From a virus: a stretch of 38,588 bases of DNA. The position numbers and the translations under genes are program-made. The DNA lies in the IMG/VR virus record IMGVR_UViG_3300032278_004286, positions 1-38,588 of that record; one strand, written 5' to 3'. Numbering within the stretch: position 1 is the stretch's first letter; each line of letters begins with the position of its first letter. The notes below the pieces were generated by a model. It did no database searches and was not told the origin of the DNA. It was given only the letters and a program-made list of their open reading frames with translations. Shown one piece after another: positions 27,665 to 38,172 of this stretch.

Positions 27665-28276
27665 TTACACGGCCTTGCGAACATCAAGCGGGTCGATCAC
27701 GCCGGGCACGGCGCGTCCGAACAATTCGCCCTCGAAGCCGACCATCGGGTGCATTTCGTGCGCGGCGCTGACCATGCGGGTAAAACGCACCACCTGGTTC
27801 ATGAAGGGGCCGGAGAGGATTTCCAACATATCGCCGGGGTCGAACTGGCACATGGCGGCGCGGTCGTTGCGGTCGATGATGCGGCGAGCTTCCTCCGCCT
27901 TGGCGTTGGCGCGAGTGATGAACTCGGACAGGCCCTTGCCGGTCTGAACCTCGTTCTGGTCCTTGTCCTTGCGAACGCCGGTCATGTCGGCGCGGCTGAT
28001 CGCCATGAGCGTGGGCGCGAGGCCACGGGCGCGGATCGCGGCGTGATACAGATCATCGGGGATATCCGCGAAGACATAGTTGGGCAGCAGGACTTCCGTC
28101 TCCGGCTCTGCATATCGGCGCTTGCCCTTGCGCAGGAACGTGATGCGCACCGGGGCGTGAGCCTCGATCCCCATGGCTTGCAGTTGGCGAACGACGGCGA
28201 ACTCGCCGCGCTCCTTTTCGGCGCCGGGGAACGGTGCGATCTTCCTTGTGGTCGTGATGCCCAGATACCAAGTCAT
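27665..28276 (-). CDS. NusG/RfaH-family transcription elongation factor paralogue
   Basis: 203 residues. N-terminal NGN-like domain: WYLGITTTRK start, LQAMGIEAHAPV, then ETEVLLPNYVFADIP, the typical 'LFPGYVFV' strand. The C-terminal KOW segment FDPGDMLEILSGPFMN (145-160) ends with a beta barrel-like FGRAVPGVI. It should bind RNA polymerase and alter pausing or termination. Last gene of the early operon, directly before the late promoter and hairpin, so a role as late-operon antiterminator or stabiliser is inferred. A GAGGGGCAGG site precedes ATG 28276. Confidence 0.85.
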   Translation of the reverse strand: MTWYLGITTTRKIAPFPGAEKERGEFAVVRQLQAMGIEAHAPVRITFLRKGKRRYAEPETEVLLPNYVFADIPDDLYHAAIRARGLAPTLMAISRADMTGVRKDKDQNEVQTGKGLSEFITRANAKAEEARRIIDRNDRAAMCQFDPGDMLEILSGPFMNQVVRFTRMVSAAHEMHPMVGFEGELFGRAVPGVIDPLDVRKAV

Positions 28277-29532: not shown

Positions 29533-29846
29533 GCTGCCTCCCACGGCTGGGCGACCCCGGCAGCGCGTCGACCGGCGGCGGTCAGTTCGTAGGTCAGGGC
29601 GCGGTCCTGGCTGGTCCACGGTGACGCCTTGCCGGCCAGCAGGCCCTTGTCGCACAGCCGGGCGACGGCTTCGCTGCCACGGCTGTGGTTCTGTTCGCCC
29701 CCGAGGTGGCGCTGTGCGTGAGCGAGGGTGAGCGGCGACAGCGCACGGGCGCGGGCGGCGGCAAGGCGCAGCACGACGGCTTCGTCGGCCAGTGCGCTTT
29801 CGGTGGCGCGGGTTATCTCGGCGATGGTGCGGGGGGCGAGGATCAT
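29529..29846 (-). CDS. Winged-helix-like small protein
   Basis: 105 residues. An Ala/Arg-rich helical start, then LSPLTLAHAQRHLGGEQNHS, and RLCDKGLLAGKASPW followed by ALTYELTAAGRRA, the 'recognition helix plus wing' pattern of MarR-like folds. Coupled to its neighbours by ATGA. Possibly DNA-binding; no family name. Confidence 0.6.
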   Translation of the reverse strand: MILAPRTIAEITRATESALADEAVVLRLAAARARALSPLTLAHAQRHLGGEQNHSRGSEAVARLCDKGLLAGKASPWTSQDRALTYELTAAGRRAAGVAQPWEAA

Positions 29847-30673
29847 GCGAGCGCCTCCAGAATTGCGTTGCCGATCAGTTCGGGGATTTGCGGGACGACG
29901 GCGTTTCCAAAACGCCTTGCGGTCTGCGTGGCCATCCCATCGGATAGCCCATCATCCATGCCGCGAAGGCGGTGCAGGACTTCGTGCCAGGTTTCAGGCC
30001 AAGCCTGTTCAGGGTCGTATACAAGCCGTCCCCGCTGGTCGCGGAAGCGCCAACCCGATTGTAGTTCCCGTTGACGGTAATCGTGGGCAACAACCGCCGC
30101 AGCTTCTGCCGAGCATGTGTGCCGCCGTCCAAGAAATAGCTCGATCCCTTCCCGCCTGATCTGGCGACCGGCGTCGGAAGCAATGATCCAGACGCGCTCG
30201 CGTTCGTGCGGGGCACCAAGTCCGGCTGCGGGAATAACATGCCACTCCGCATCATACCCGAGCGCGGCCAGCTGCCCGAATACGTGGCCAGCCCATCCCC
30301 CTCCATCGCCAGTAAGCAGATCTGCGGAGTTTTCCAGGATGATGAAGCCGGGTCGAATTTCGCCAGCCAGCCTGATGATCTCGGAGAATAGCCCGGTTCG
30401 TTCACCATGAATTCCCGCCTTCTTCCCGGCTGCTGAAATGTCTTGGCAGGGAAACCCGCCGGTTATCACGTCGATGCAAGGCGGCAGGTCATTTGCCGAC
30501 AGCGCCCTCACGTCCTCGAAGATCGGAACGCCCGGCCATGCGGTTGCCAGATCGTTGCGCCGGTCGGGGTCTATCTCGCAGAATGCGACCGTCTCGAAAC
30601 CGCCCGTCCGTTCCAGCCCGAGGCTGAAACCGCCGATGCCGCTGAACAGATCGAGAACCTTGAGTTTGCTCAT
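29843..30673 (-). CDS. DNA cytosine-5 methyltransferase
   Basis: 276 residues with C5-MTase motifs: I DLFSGIGGFSLGLE (8-21), II-like FCEIDPDRRNDL, IV GGFPCQDISAAG with catalytic Cys76, VI LENSADLL (Glu114), VIII APHERERVWII (154-164), and X RRFGNAVVPQIPELIG near the end. The target-recognition region between VIII and IX is short. Likely protects phage DNA from host restriction. A second protein-like frame overlaps most of it. ATG 30673 overlaps the upstream stop. Confidence 0.9.
   Translation of the reverse strand: MSKLKVLDLFSGIGGFSLGLERTGGFETVAFCEIDPDRRNDLATAWPGVPIFEDVRALSANDLPPCIDVITGGFPCQDISAAGKKAGIHGERTGLFSEIIRLAGEIRPGFIILENSADLLTGDGGGWAGHVFGQLAALGYDAEWHVIPAAGLGAPHERERVWIIASDAGRQIRREGIELFLGRRHTCSAEAAAVVAHDYRQRELQSGWRFRDQRGRLVYDPEQAWPETWHEVLHRLRGMDDGLSDGMATQTARRFGNAVVPQIPELIGNAILEALA
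29875..30408 (-). CDS. Overprinted frame inside the methyltransferase gene
   Basis: 177 codons in the +1 frame. The product contains WLAKFDPASSSWKTPQICLL, YSGSWPRSGMMRSGMLFPQP, SGSLLPTPVARSGGKG, LLPTITVNGNYNRVGASATS, MMGYPMGWPRR and LETPSSRKSPN. From memory this W-PRSGM..G / LLPTP / MG-P-GW pattern occurs in many phage proteins annotated as hypothetical or methyltransferase-related. Here it is wholly encoded across methyltransferase codons. ATG 30408 has a weak AAGGCGGG site. Translation is unproven. Confidence 0.5.
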   Translation of the reverse strand: MVNEPGYSPRSSGWLAKFDPASSSWKTPQICLLAMEGDGLATYSGSWPRSGMMRSGMLFPQPDLVPRTNASASGSLLPTPVARSGGKGSSYFLDGGTHARQKLRRLLPTITVNGNYNRVGASATSGDGLYTTLNRLGLKPGTKSCTAFAAWMMGYPMGWPRRPQGVLETPSSRKSPN

Positions 30674-30870
30674 GCAAGCCTCCGGTATGCCTGTGCGCTG
30701 GTCTGCCCGGTGCCGATGCGGTCGGAGACGACGCGGTTGGCCGTGGTCAGGCGATAGAGCGCGCTGCGGACCTCGCCCGCCGTCAGCTTCGTGCGGTTCA
30801 CCATGTCGGCGGCGGTGTATTCCCGGCCGGGCTTCATGGCGGCGAATACGGTTTCGGTGTGGTCGGTCAT
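30670..30870 (-). CDS. Small winged-HTH-like protein
   Basis: 66 residues: ETVFAAMKPGREYTAADMVN then RTKLTAGEVRSALYRLTTAN, the layout of a winged helix (two helices plus turn). Ends with ATGA overlap into the methyltransferase gene. Probably DNA-binding. Confidence 0.6.
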   Translation of the reverse strand: MTDHTETVFAAMKPGREYTAADMVNRTKLTAGEVRSALYRLTTANRVVSDRIGTGQTSAQAYRRLA

Positions 30871-31214
30871 TCTTCGCCCTCCAGGTGGACAAGACCGGCG
30901 GCTCGACGGCGCTGCTGCGTCGTGACGAGCGCCCGGAACAGCTCCTCCCAGCCGACCGATGCAGCCCGCGATTCCTGCGCCGAGTGGCAGGCGTGGCAGG
31001 CGTCCACGATGAACAGGTCGTCCGGCTTCTGCCCCATGCCTGCGAGGGACAGGACGCGAAGGTGAGCGCCGACCACGGTTTCCGGGTCGTGGGTGCAAAT
31101 TCCCGGCAGGGCGAGGGTGCAGGACATGCCCCGCGAGGCATTGCGGATAGGCTTCGACTTGCCGGGGCGGTTGCCCTTCTGGTAGGGGGCGCGGCCTGTT
31201 TCGATGTAGGTCAT
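30867..31214 (-). CDS. YbcO/DUF1364-like nuclease
   Basis: 115 residues. KPIRNASRGMSCTLALPGIC followed by THDPETVVGAHLR, then GMGQKPDDLFIVDACHACH, matches the DUF1364 (YbcO) pattern of lambdoid phages: a zinc-binding His-Me-like nuclease fold with C-x8-C, H and C-x2-C-H. Probably acts in phage recombination. Coupled to both neighbours by ATGA overlaps. Confidence 0.75.
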   Translation of the reverse strand: MTYIETGRAPYQKGNRPGKSKPIRNASRGMSCTLALPGICTHDPETVVGAHLRVLSLAGMGQKPDDLFIVDACHACHSAQESRAASVGWEELFRALVTTQQRRRAAGLVHLEGEE

Positions 31215-31690
31215 GCCGCCTCCATCATGTGCGAAGCCGCGAGGATCGCCTGTATCTCGGGCCAGTGTTCGCTGTCCTCGATCCACCGGCAGAGATCGTC
31301 GCGGATGTAGCGCATGGCGGCGTCCATGAAGGCTCCGAAAGCCTGCTCGTCCATCGCCGCGAAGCTGATGGACTTCGGCAGGGCCGCATACTCCACCCCC
31401 AGCCGTTCGCGGTCCCGGCGGGACAGTTTCAGCGTCTCGACGTGCCCCGTCGCCAGCTTGACGTGGGTCAGGACGCGCTCCGCATCCCAATCCGTTGCTG
31501 TCGGGCCGTCGTTCAGAGCATCCGCCACGTAGGTGAACAGGGCGAAGGCCATGCGGTGAAATTTGCCGTTGCGCGGCTGCTTCGGATCCACCTTGAGCGG
31601 GACGCCCCGCGCCAGCTTCTCGACCTCGATAGCCGCCGCCTTGTTGGACGGGCGAAGTGTCCGACCGTCGCTTGTCACGAAGAAGGTCAT
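31211..31690 (-). CDS. DUF1367-like phage protein
   Basis: 159 residues. DGRTLRPSNKAAAIEVEKLA, PKQPRNGKFHRMAFALFTYV, and LPKSISFAAMDEQAFGAFMD follow the DUF1367 pattern ('PRN..HRKFFALL', 'SISF..MD...F'). Found in early regions of lambdoid-like phages next to DUF1364 genes, as here. Function unknown. ATG 31690 overlaps the Rad52-like stop (ATGA). Confidence 0.7.
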   Translation of the reverse strand: MTFFVTSDGRTLRPSNKAAAIEVEKLARGVPLKVDPKQPRNGKFHRMAFALFTYVADALNDGPTATDWDAERVLTHVKLATGHVETLKLSRRDRERLGVEYAALPKSISFAAMDEQAFGAFMDAAMRYIRDDLCRWIEDSEHWPEIQAILAASHMMEAA

Positions 31691-32367
31691 TCCGCAGCCT
31701 CCGCAGGAGCCTGGCCGAGGTTGCCCGCCCGGATGGTCGCCGCGTGGCGAAGTTCGTTCTGCATCGGCATGGGAAGCCGATCCACCGCCGCCTGAATTTT
31801 CTCGCTCTCCCACAGGGCGACGAAATCATCCAGGGTTGATGCCTCCGCGATCTTGTCCTTGATCCAATCGCGCTTTTCAGCATCCGACATGGGGCGCTTG
31901 GCCTTGTCGGCTGGCTTGCGCGGCGGGGCCTTCTGCTGCCCACGAACGTGGTTCCACGGATCATCCGTCCACTTCGACCACTTGCCGTTGTAAGTCTCGC
32001 ACGGGCACCAGACGTTCGGCAGGCGGTAGAGATACCGACCGATGCCCCACGACACGGCGGCGCGTTTCAGCGCGTCGGAAATGCCGCCCTTCTCGCCCTC
32101 AACGTCGGTGTTGCCAGCGCCGTCAGACTTCCAGATCCACTCACCATCGACCCGGATGCCAAGGCGGCAGAGAACCCGGCCCTTGGCAGTCTCGGAAAAC
32201 TCCGTCTGCCAATTCTCGGGGCCGCACACATCGTCCAGCCGGTCCATCACGTCGCGGGCGTCCAGGTAGGCCAAAGCGAGCGCCTTGTCGCCCGCCTTGG
32301 TGACGGTCTGCGCCCGCCAGTGAACGGAAGCGCGGTCAAATTCCGCAGAGAGTGCTTGCAGGTCCAT
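31687..32367 (-). CDS. Rad52/22-family single-strand annealing protein
   Basis: 226 residues. The core YLDARDVMDRLDDVCGPENW QTEF (residues 34-57), then a beta strand pair RVLCRLGIRVDGEWIWKSDG and KGGISDALKRAAVSWGIGRY with LYRLPNVW, is the Rad52/Rad22 pattern of phage recombinases. It should anneal complementary single strands and work with Gp157-type and SSB-like neighbours. The C-terminal ~80 residues are a linker plus helical tail. Confidence 0.85.
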   Translation of the reverse strand: MDLQALSAEFDRASVHWRAQTVTKAGDKALALAYLDARDVMDRLDDVCGPENWQTEFSETAKGRVLCRLGIRVDGEWIWKSDGAGNTDVEGEKGGISDALKRAAVSWGIGRYLYRLPNVWCPCETYNGKWSKWTDDPWNHVRGQQKAPPRKPADKAKRPMSDAEKRDWIKDKIAEASTLDDFVALWESEKIQAAVDRLPMPMQNELRHAATIRAGNLGQAPAEAAE

Positions 32368-36561: not shown

Positions 36562-36758
36562 GCGCCCCTCCCGAGAAAGGCCCCTCCGGCCAGCCCGGCC
36601 AGCCGGAGGGAGTTTGCCGCCTGCACAGGGAGGGTGAGAGGCAGACGGGTTCCGATGTTCGATTTTGTGTCAGGGCCTTGCGCGCGCAGCATCGTCCCCC
36701 ATTTGGGGTAGGCGCGGGCGACAAGACCCGCAGAGGCAGACAGGCGAACCTTCGGCAT
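36558..36758 (-). CDS. 66-aa hypothetical protein
   Basis: MPKVRLSASAGLVARAYPKW then GTMLRAQGPD. It starts at ATG 36758 sharing its A with the Cro-like stop (TGATG). Gly/Leu-rich C-terminus. Unrecognised. Confidence 0.55.
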   Translation of the reverse strand: MPKVRLSASAGLVARAYPKWGTMLRAQGPDTKSNIGTRLPLTLPVQAANSLRLAGLAGGAFLGRGA

Positions 36759-37021
36759 CACGACGCCTCCGAGCGGGGGGCGGTGGACGAAGGAGACGAC
36801 GTGACCGCATGTGCATTCACAAACCGCTCGGCGCTGACCTTGAGGCCCCGCGCCTTGCCGCCGTCGATGAGGGCTTGCCAGTATTTCGCCGGGACGCTCT
36901 GGCGGCTGTGCCAGCGGTGGACCGCGATCAGATCAAGGTCGGGATCAGCGGCGCGTGCGTCCTCGTGGACCGCCTTGCGGTCGGGCCAGAGTCCGAGAAG
37001 CTGTGTGACGGGGCTGTTCAT
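36758..37021 (-). CDS. Cro-like early repressor
   Basis: 87 residues. Pattern of Cro/YdaS-type proteins: LLGLWPDRKAVHEDARAADP, DLIAVHRWHSRQSVPAKYWQ then ALIDGGKARGLKVS, with the W-x2-R-x2-IPA-x-YW string. ATG 37021 is favoured because the upstream ATG at 37051 lies inside the operator ahead of the -10 box. First gene of the leftward early operon and divergent from the CI-like gene. Probably competes for the same operators. Confidence 0.75.
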   Translation of the reverse strand: MNSPVTQLLGLWPDRKAVHEDARAADPDLDLIAVHRWHSRQSVPAKYWQALIDGGKARGLKVSAERFVNAHAVTSSPSSTAPRSEAS

Positions 37022-37029
37022 AGCACCGC

Positions 37030-37058
37030 ACACTATGACCAAATCGGTCACAGGTCAA
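37030..37058 (-). promoter_or_regulatory. Leftward early promoter with operator O1 in its spacer
   Basis: Minus-strand TTGACC (37058-37053) and TAGTGT (37035-37030), spacer 17 bases. The spacer holds operator O1 TGACCAAATCGGTCA (37036-37050, plus view). Expected start is about 37023, next to ATG 37021, so the transcript is nearly leaderless. A bound repressor would block polymerase directly. Confidence 0.75.
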
Positions 37059-37068
37059 TAGTGCCGAG

Positions 37069-37422
37069 ATGGTTATTGCGACCGAAATGGTCATGGGCGA
37101 GATTTCGGCCACCATGTCGAAGCCCGAATCCTTCCTCGCCGAAAGCACGGCGTCAGAGATGCGGCCCGAGAAGATCGGGCATCGCCTCTACCTGCTGCGG
37201 GAAGCTCTCGGCATGAAGCCTTCGGAAATTGCCGACTACCTCGGCATCGAACGGACCTACTGGTCGCGCTTCGAGGGCGGCAAGCGTGCCATATCCGATG
37301 TCGTTGCGGCCTTGCTGGTCGAGCGGTTCGGCGTCACGCTGGACTTCTTGATACTGGGCCGCTGGGACAGGCTTCCGCTGGACCTCGCCGAAAAGATGCG
37401 GTCGGTCGAAAAGAAGAGCTGA
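37069..37422 (+). CDS. CI-like XRE-family repressor
   Basis: 117 residues. An XRE HTH: IGHRLYLLREALGMKPSEIA then DYLGIERTYWSRFEGGKRAI, ending with a short LLVERFGVTLDFLILG tail. No LexA-type peptidase domain, so induction by RecA is not expected. Start is unsure: ATG at 37069, 37087, 37093 or 37114; the first would be leaderless. Divergent from the Cro-like gene with operators between. Likely the lysogeny regulator. Confidence 0.75.
   Translation: MVIATEMVMGEISATMSKPESFLAESTASEMRPEKIGHRLYLLREALGMKPSEIADYLGIERTYWSRFEGGKRAISDVVAALLVERFGVTLDFLILGRWDRLPLDLAEKMRSVEKKS
37079..37093. promoter_or_regulatory. Operator O2
   Basis: CGACCGAAATGGTCA, 14 of 15 bases fitting the TGACC-N5-GGTCA pattern of O1, O3 and O4. 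Centre 43 bases from O1. It lies in the first codons of the CI-like gene if that starts at 37069, or in its leader if it starts at 37114. Confidence 0.6.
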
Positions 37423-37456
37423 TCCAGGCTTTCCCCAGTGCGCCGCGCCCTTCTGG

Positions 37457-37474
37457 CGAGGCACCACAGCCTCG
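37457..37474. terminator. Hairpin after the CI-like gene
   Basis: CGAGGC-ACCACA-GCCTCG, a perfect 6-bp stem with a 6-base loop, 35 bases after the stop. No T-run follows. It could end or stabilise the repressor message. The rest of 37423-37579 shows no gene. Confidence 0.35.
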
Positions 37475-37579
37475 GGTTCCACGCCCAATAGGCCATCCCC
37501 AACCTACTCGCATTCTAGAACAAATCGTGACCGCCAGCATATGAAGCTAGGCGGCGTCTCGCCACACATTTTTTAGATG

Positions 37580-37594
37580 TGACCGACATGGTCA
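37580..37594. promoter_or_regulatory. Operator O3
   Basis: TGACCGACATGGTCA, a near-perfect palindrome of the same family as O1, O2 and O4. Its centre lies 32 bases upstream of O4, about three helical turns, fitting cooperative binding. Confidence 0.7.
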
Positions 37595-37603
37595 TTTCTC
37601 GTG

Positions 37604-37632
37604 TTGACTTGTGACCGTTTTGGTCATAGCCT
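37604..37632 (+). promoter_or_regulatory. Rightward early promoter with operator O4 in its spacer
   Basis: TTGACT (37604-37609) and TAGCCT (37627-37632), spacer 17 bases. O4 TGACCGTTTTGGTCA (37612-37626) lies wholly inside the spacer, the same placement as O1 in the leftward promoter. Transcription should begin near 37639, giving a 50-base leader for the next gene. Confidence 0.75.
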
Positions 37633-37689
37633 CTCCCCATCACCGCACAACGCGGCCCCCGCCCCGAAGGGCAGATGATGGAGAGGACG

Positions 37690-38172
37690 ATGACGCGTAA
37701 GCCGATCAGGGAAGAGGACGGAACTCACAAGGAATGGATGGAGCGAGCCAAGTCGATCACGCTCGACACCCTTCCTGACTTCCTTCGCGAGCTGACCGAA
37801 GACTACGACCACGATTACGGCACGATCTGCCACGCTATTGCGGCGGCAGCGGTCGCGGCGGCTTGGGCGGTGGAGAAATCTCCGCAAGGCGGCATCACCG
37901 GCTTTCAAGGCAGCGCCGTTACGTGGGAGTTCATCAGGGGCTGGAACAGCTCGATGATCGGCGAGACCGGCGCTCGCATCCAGAACATGGATAACCTCCT
38001 GTTCCCGCAATACGCCGACAGCTTCACCACAGTCCCGGAAGATACGTGGCGGCGGGTTCAGGAGAAGGCGAAAGAACACCTCGCCTCGAAAGACGAAGCC
38101 GCGTCGAGTGTTCGAGCGCACTGGCAGAGCATCGCAAACGGCTCCGTTCCGTTCGGGCTTCGCATCGCCTGA
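37690..38172 (+). CDS. Hypothetical early protein, conserved type
   Basis: 160 residues. DYDHDYGTICHAIAAAAVAA followed by GGITGFQGSAVTWEFIRGWN, and LLFPQYADSFTTVPEDTWRR then VQEKAKEHL is a set of strings I recall from conserved phage proteins of unknown function. ATG 37690 was chosen with GGAGAGG just before it; ATGs at 37675 and 37678 are possible. First gene of the repressed rightward operon. Confidence 0.7.
   Translation: MTRKPIREEDGTHKEWMERAKSITLDTLPDFLRELTEDYDHDYGTICHAIAAAAVAAAWAVEKSPQGGITGFQGSAVTWEFIRGWNSSMIGETGARIQNMDNLLFPQYADSFTTVPEDTWRRVQEKAKEHLASKDEAASSVRAHWQSIANGSVPFGLRIA

Follow-up and report, generated by a model that had tools for sequence, protein, structure and literature searches.

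In phage lambda, the operator OR1 lies within the promoter PR, OR2 lies between the -35 boxes, and OR3 lies within PRM, and the cI message is leaderless. Repressors of the P2-type short C family are about 100 residues long and lack a peptidase domain, so they do not undergo SOS self-cleavage, and P2 itself relies on a two-gene switch and has no separate set of OL operators. Phage N15 has two OL sites in addition to three operators that lie between cro and the prophage repressor, and in PY54 the cI and cro mRNAs both start at the AUG, i.e., are leaderless, as determined by RACE (PMC4488713). In Rhodobacter sphaeroides, an operon without a leader has been described (PMC3017554). The quorum-sensing prophage switches of Phaeobacter, which show a similar divergent layout, were considered and set aside as a model, since the passages considered describe no operators (PMC13345283). 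For Rhodobacteraceae phages, no description of an operator set was found in the literature searched.

The sequence under study, referred to here as the window, covers a whole virus record from IMG/VR (38,588 bases), which is classed as linear, is possibly a fragment, and may be incomplete. It contains what appears to be a bistable temperate-phage immunity region, lambda-type in mirror image, which would be run by a CI-like repressor at O1, O4, Ox, and O2 with a Cro-like partner (Table 1). Judged from sequence comparison, the probability of this reading is about 0.86. The layout is called a mirror image of lambda because the order is replication operon, cro, OR, cI, OL, and second early operon. 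A sequence-only reading of the window had proposed an immunity switch of two operons whose repressor lacks a peptidase, and this proposal appears well supported by the same architecture in roughly 20 phages and prophages of Rhodobacteraceae. It had missed the close match to lambda in mirror image, in which O1, Ox, and O2 form an OR set separating cro from cI, and O3 and O4 form an OL set on the far side of cI.

After cro, the leftward operon contains RusA-, DnaD-, primase/helicase-, Erf-, and Gam-like genes and, further on, terminase, portal, head, and tail genes. A DNA methyltransferase-like open reading frame (29843-31141) and an HNH endonuclease-like one (30867-31964) overlap on the minus strand of this operon. 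The rightward operon is cut off by the end of the record. Its first gene gave no match in Pfam, PHROGs, or NCBIfam, and an IMG/VR search for its relatives confirmed none. At the DNA level, a distant search against phage records found no match. At its beginning, the rightward transcript can form a hairpin, CCATCG...CGATGG, which abuts or overlaps the Shine-Dalgarno sequence of the first gene. This hairpin is located just after O4 in L005, L006, L007, L008, L011, and L031, and has a looser form in the window (37638-37690). No integrase match was found in the window record, and 8 of the 11 related virus records searched had one.

Table 1. Genes, predicted promoters, and candidate operators of the proposed immunity region in the window.
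Feature	Position	Strand	Description
cro-like gene	36758..37021	-	87 aa; heads the leftward operon
PR	37030..37058	-	-35 TTGACC (37053-37058), 17-nt spacer TG + O1, -10 TAGTGT (37030-37035)
O1 (OR1-like)	37036-37050	no strand	TGACCAAATCGGTCA, exact TGACC-N5-GGTCA
Ox (OR2-like), weak operator	37061-37075	no strand	GTGCCGAGATGGTTA, exactly between the PR and PRM -35 boxes
PRM	37076..37104	+	-35 TTGCGA (37076-37081), 17-nt spacer, -10 GAGATT (37099-37104)
O2 (OR3-like)	37079-37093	no strand	CGACCGAAATGGTCA, one mismatch (CGACC)
cI-like repressor gene	37114..37422	+	102 aa; ATG aligned among relatives
O3 (OL2-like)	37580-37594	no strand	TGACCGACATGGTCA, exact TGACC-N5-GGTCA
PL	37604..37632	+	-35 TTGACT (37604-37609), spacer TG + O4, -10 TAGCCT (37627-37632)
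O4 (OL1-like)	37612-37626	no strand	TGACCGTTTTGGTCA, exact TGACC-N5-GGTCA
Rightward operon, first gene	37690..38172	+	from the ORF list; Shine-Dalgarno GGAGAGG

Four palindromes sharing TGACC-N5-GGTCA had been described from the sequence at these positions; this form is exact in O1, O3, and O4, and O2 departs from it by one mismatch. In a 700-bp stretch of the same composition, chance predicts 0.0005 exact sites, versus three found; with up to one mismatch allowed, it predicts 0.02, versus four found. The proposed check, a search for copies of the 15-mer across the 38,588-bp record, returned no further exact copy, and the remaining one-mismatch sites, at 27769 and 29197, are at the chance level (about 1.5). 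The near identity of the outward promoters, with O1 and O4 filling their spacers, was also borne out: TTGACC-TG-O1-TAGTGT corresponds to TTGACT-TG-O4-TAGCCT, and the arms at 37033-37058 and 37604-37629 are 92% complementary over 26 nt.

IMG/VR records contain relatives of the CI-like protein with 52-73% identity, as do genome contigs of Rhodobacteraceae such as Pseudoroseicyclus, Aquimixticola, Palleronia, Oceanicola, and Paracoccus. Among the 23 loci compared, window included, O1 is present in all, and the O3/O4 pair is present in 20, always 30-32 bp apart. Nearly all relatives have TTGAC-N17 with an operator in the PR spacer, and the -35 boxes preceding their O1 and O4 are mostly TTGACA. O2 is kept in most relatives, with C, A, or T as the first base, and is lost in at least L010, L014, L017, L020, L036, and L038. 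L010 and L038 carry extra operator copies about 243 bp past O1, beyond cro, and L012 and L031 carry them right next to O1. In L016 and L035, O3/O4 lie about 900 bp from the cI start versus the usual 500 bp or so, which leaves room for an extra gene. Wider searches added no further operator class to the TGACC and TGACT groups analysed here.

The cI start had been taken as 37069, the position given by the ORF caller, which would place most of Ox and O2 inside the coding sequence. Comparison with relatives corrects it to 37114: they share an ATG at the matching position, in L016 a stop codon interrupts the frame shortly before its ATG, and L008 has no ATG, GTG, or TTG at the upstream position. 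Since cI begins at 37114, O2 is promoter DNA. In 18 of 22 loci, a TTG is found exactly 35 nt upstream of the cI ATG, and 16 of 22 carry A-N3-T at -11/-7; both offsets are the strongest of their kind within the 60 nt upstream of the ATG. Because these offsets are fixed relative to the cI ATG, PRM can be described as TTGnnn-N17-nAnnnT-N6-ATG. In the window, the TTG-to-ATG distance is 38, which exceeds that of the relatives by 3 nt, and the -10 box is poor. The sequence-only reading lacked both the repressor's own promoter, whose spacer contains most of O2, and a fifth, degenerate site, Ox, having counted four operators only. Automatic annotation may swallow regulatory regions, as the corrected cI start and the promoter with O2 warn.

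A Shine-Dalgarno-like tetramer is missing upstream of the cI ATG in 18 of 22 loci, and the predicted 5' end of the cI mRNA lies at the AUG or close to it, which would leave no leader or almost none. In the first eight loci, the cro ATG sits 6-9 nt past its -10, so the cro leader would be about 0-2 nt; in the window, the PR start is predicted about 2 nt upstream of the cro ATG. The cro message is probably leaderless or nearly so as well.

The CI-like protein contains an HTH and a C-terminal helix, and its only profile matches are to HTH families (HTH_31/HTH_3). The structural model (pLDDT 95.6) is one compact helical domain with the recognition helix at residues 47-54, and no peptidase domain was found by profile matches or in the predicted structure. 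Solved relatives identified by a PDB sequence search include PezA, C.BclI, and C.AhdI, and a fold search returned C.BclI, C.AhdI, and C.Esp1396I, none at E < 0.001. The spacing of R47, T48, Y49, and R58, as counted here, equals that of R35, T36, Y37, and R46 in C.Esp1396I, where T36 and R46 touch DNA bases (PMC4041747). On the best reading, the predicted DNA-reading helix resembles that of restriction-modification C proteins.

The Cro-like protein of the window matches the carph-isopro family weakly (E 6e-5, below the cut-off), as do, weakly, 21 of the 22 Cro-like proteins, and a few relatives match P22_Cro/YdaS, also weakly. It is predicted to be helical with a recognition helix at residues 31-40. 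Its fold search gave poor matches, none convincing, no solved relative was found, and the IMG/VR search for relatives of the window protein confirmed none. Family matches and gene position weakly suggest that it is a Cro. The C-terminus, encoded at 36758-36763 in the window, is -AA in 14 of 22 Cro-like proteins versus 9 of 143 control ORFs, and much of this may be due to the GCATGA overlap with the start of the next gene and not to a degradation tag.

Two loci, L014 and L036, depart from this operator sequence: O1, the O3/O4 pair, and Ox have all moved toward the T/A form, which is TGACT-N5-AGTCA in the strong operators. CI residue 58 is R in 21 of 23 proteins and Q in these two alone. The same two alone have N at Cro residue 40, a position in the predicted recognition helix that is R in 20 of 22 Cro-like proteins. 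Because L014 and L036 look closely related, the covariation probably reflects a single evolutionary event. A simple recognition code (Arg-to-G, Gln/Asn-to-A) is not claimed, as R46 of C.Esp1396I contacts the G of GTC, which is unchanged here. In a combined proposal, a 102-residue peptidase-less repressor runs both halves, OR and OL, of a lambda-type switch and stimulates its own synthesis through the weak central site Ox, and the family includes a natural specificity shift of CI, Cro, and all operators (GGTCA to AGTCA half-site, R58Q, R40N). This proposal is tentative, with the odds somewhat against it.

We take Ox as the counterpart of lambda OR2 from its sequence and position. In a simpler switch, CI would purely repress, bound at O1-O4 alone, and Ox would be a promoter element around the back-to-back -35 boxes. 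Such a role would suit the poor conservation of the Ox outer bases, most of which are missing in the window copy, the overlap of its right half with the ATTG of the PRM -35, and matrix scores in individual loci that are far below those of O1 and O2. However, with an operator matrix built solely from O1, O3, and O4, the Ox offset (-15 from the PRM -35) has a mean score of -2.6 against a null mean of -37 (sd 2.4) and ranks third, after O2 (0.8) and O1 (-0.5); other offsets are at or below -25, except -40, which is O1 at an alternative spacing. O1, Ox, and O2 are three operator peaks at fixed offsets from the PRM -35. The Ox core CC-N5-GG is present in 18 of the 20 scored loci, compared with at most 3 across 20,000 shuffles, and it turns to CT-N5-AG in L014 and L036 along with the remaining operators. 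We therefore regard the purely repressing switch as unlikely.

Two further explanations would remove the CI-like protein from the control of a phage switch. In a toxin-antitoxin, restriction-controller, or plasmid-type autoregulator, the HTH protein would control only itself and its neighbor, a role that would agree with PezA, C.BclI, and C.AhdI being among the solved sequence relatives, and with an operator geometry resembling CTAAG-N5-CTTAG of C.Csp231I (PMC4321490). The CI-like protein also shares with C proteins the HTH fold with an RTY recognition helix. Its neighbors, however, are phage replication genes and no linked endonuclease/methyltransferase was found, the methyltransferase-like frame noted above being distant. 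The divergent Cro-like gene heads a replication/structural operon, a second promoter past the repressor gene also has operators, and the setting recurs in virus records with integrases, all of which make an autoregulator highly improbable. Even harder to credit is a host regulator binding the palindromes in place of the phage HTH proteins: simple half-sites of the TGACC/GGTCA type could fit many regulators, but the record holds no other exact copy, and the operator change coincides with changes at interface positions of both phage proteins.

In the lambda-type switch, CI binding to O1 and O4 inside the PR and PL spacers would shut off the replication/structural and rightward operons, and would do so by blocking RNA polymerase because the operators occupy the promoter spacers. 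CI on Ox, centered about 43 bp upstream of where cI is predicted to start, would help to repress PR and possibly activate PRM. High CI, or Cro, on O2 in the PRM spacer would limit cI, and the Cro-like protein made from PR would act on the same sites to push toward lysis. The sites, the promoter-like boxes, their spacing, conservation, and covariation are read directly from the sequences, and from them we infer the occupancy of the sites by each protein, the affinity order, activation from Ox, autoregulation through O2, and leaderless translation. Since CI lacks a peptidase domain, induction would not proceed by RecA-stimulated self-cleavage, and an antirepressor or proteolysis may serve instead. 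A LexA-type box (GTTC-N7-GTTC) was rejected as an inducer route, its single match at 30644-30658 being at the chance level.

The features of lambda-type bipartite immunity found here are a divergent cro/cI pair with several operators overlapping PR and PRM, and a second operator set (O3/O4, with PL) across cI from OR at an early operon. As in lambda, the gene order is cro, OR, cI, OL, and second early operon, O1 is in PR, Ox between the -35 boxes at an O1-Ox spacing of 24-25 bp, and O2 in PRM, and the cI message is predicted to be leaderless. Unlike lambda, the 102-residue repressor has no peptidase/oligomerisation domain, and the self-cleaving C-terminal domain of the lambda CI family (HTH + S24 peptidase) is absent; Ox is very weak, several relatives have lost O2, the OL sites found number only two, and the operator is TGACC-N5-GGTCA. 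In size (about 100 residues) and in lacking a peptidase, the repressor resembles P2 short C. Within the immB group of N15, PY54, and phiKO2, the OR triplet and two OL sites resemble those of N15 and the predicted leaderless cI/cro messages those of PY54, although hosts and protein families differ and PY54 Cro binds OR3 only. Like C.Esp1396I, the repressor is a small HTH protein with RTY...R recognition residues (PMC4041747), and like that of C.Csp231I, its 15-bp site has the 5-N5-5 form (PMC4321490), but here a phage repressor has a divergent Cro-like partner and several promoters. The system would allow tests of cooperativity, autoregulation, and induction without the lambda CI C-terminal domain. 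For phages of Rhodobacteraceae, it would provide a switch in the style of lambda, run by a minimal repressor and occurring naturally in two operator specificities.
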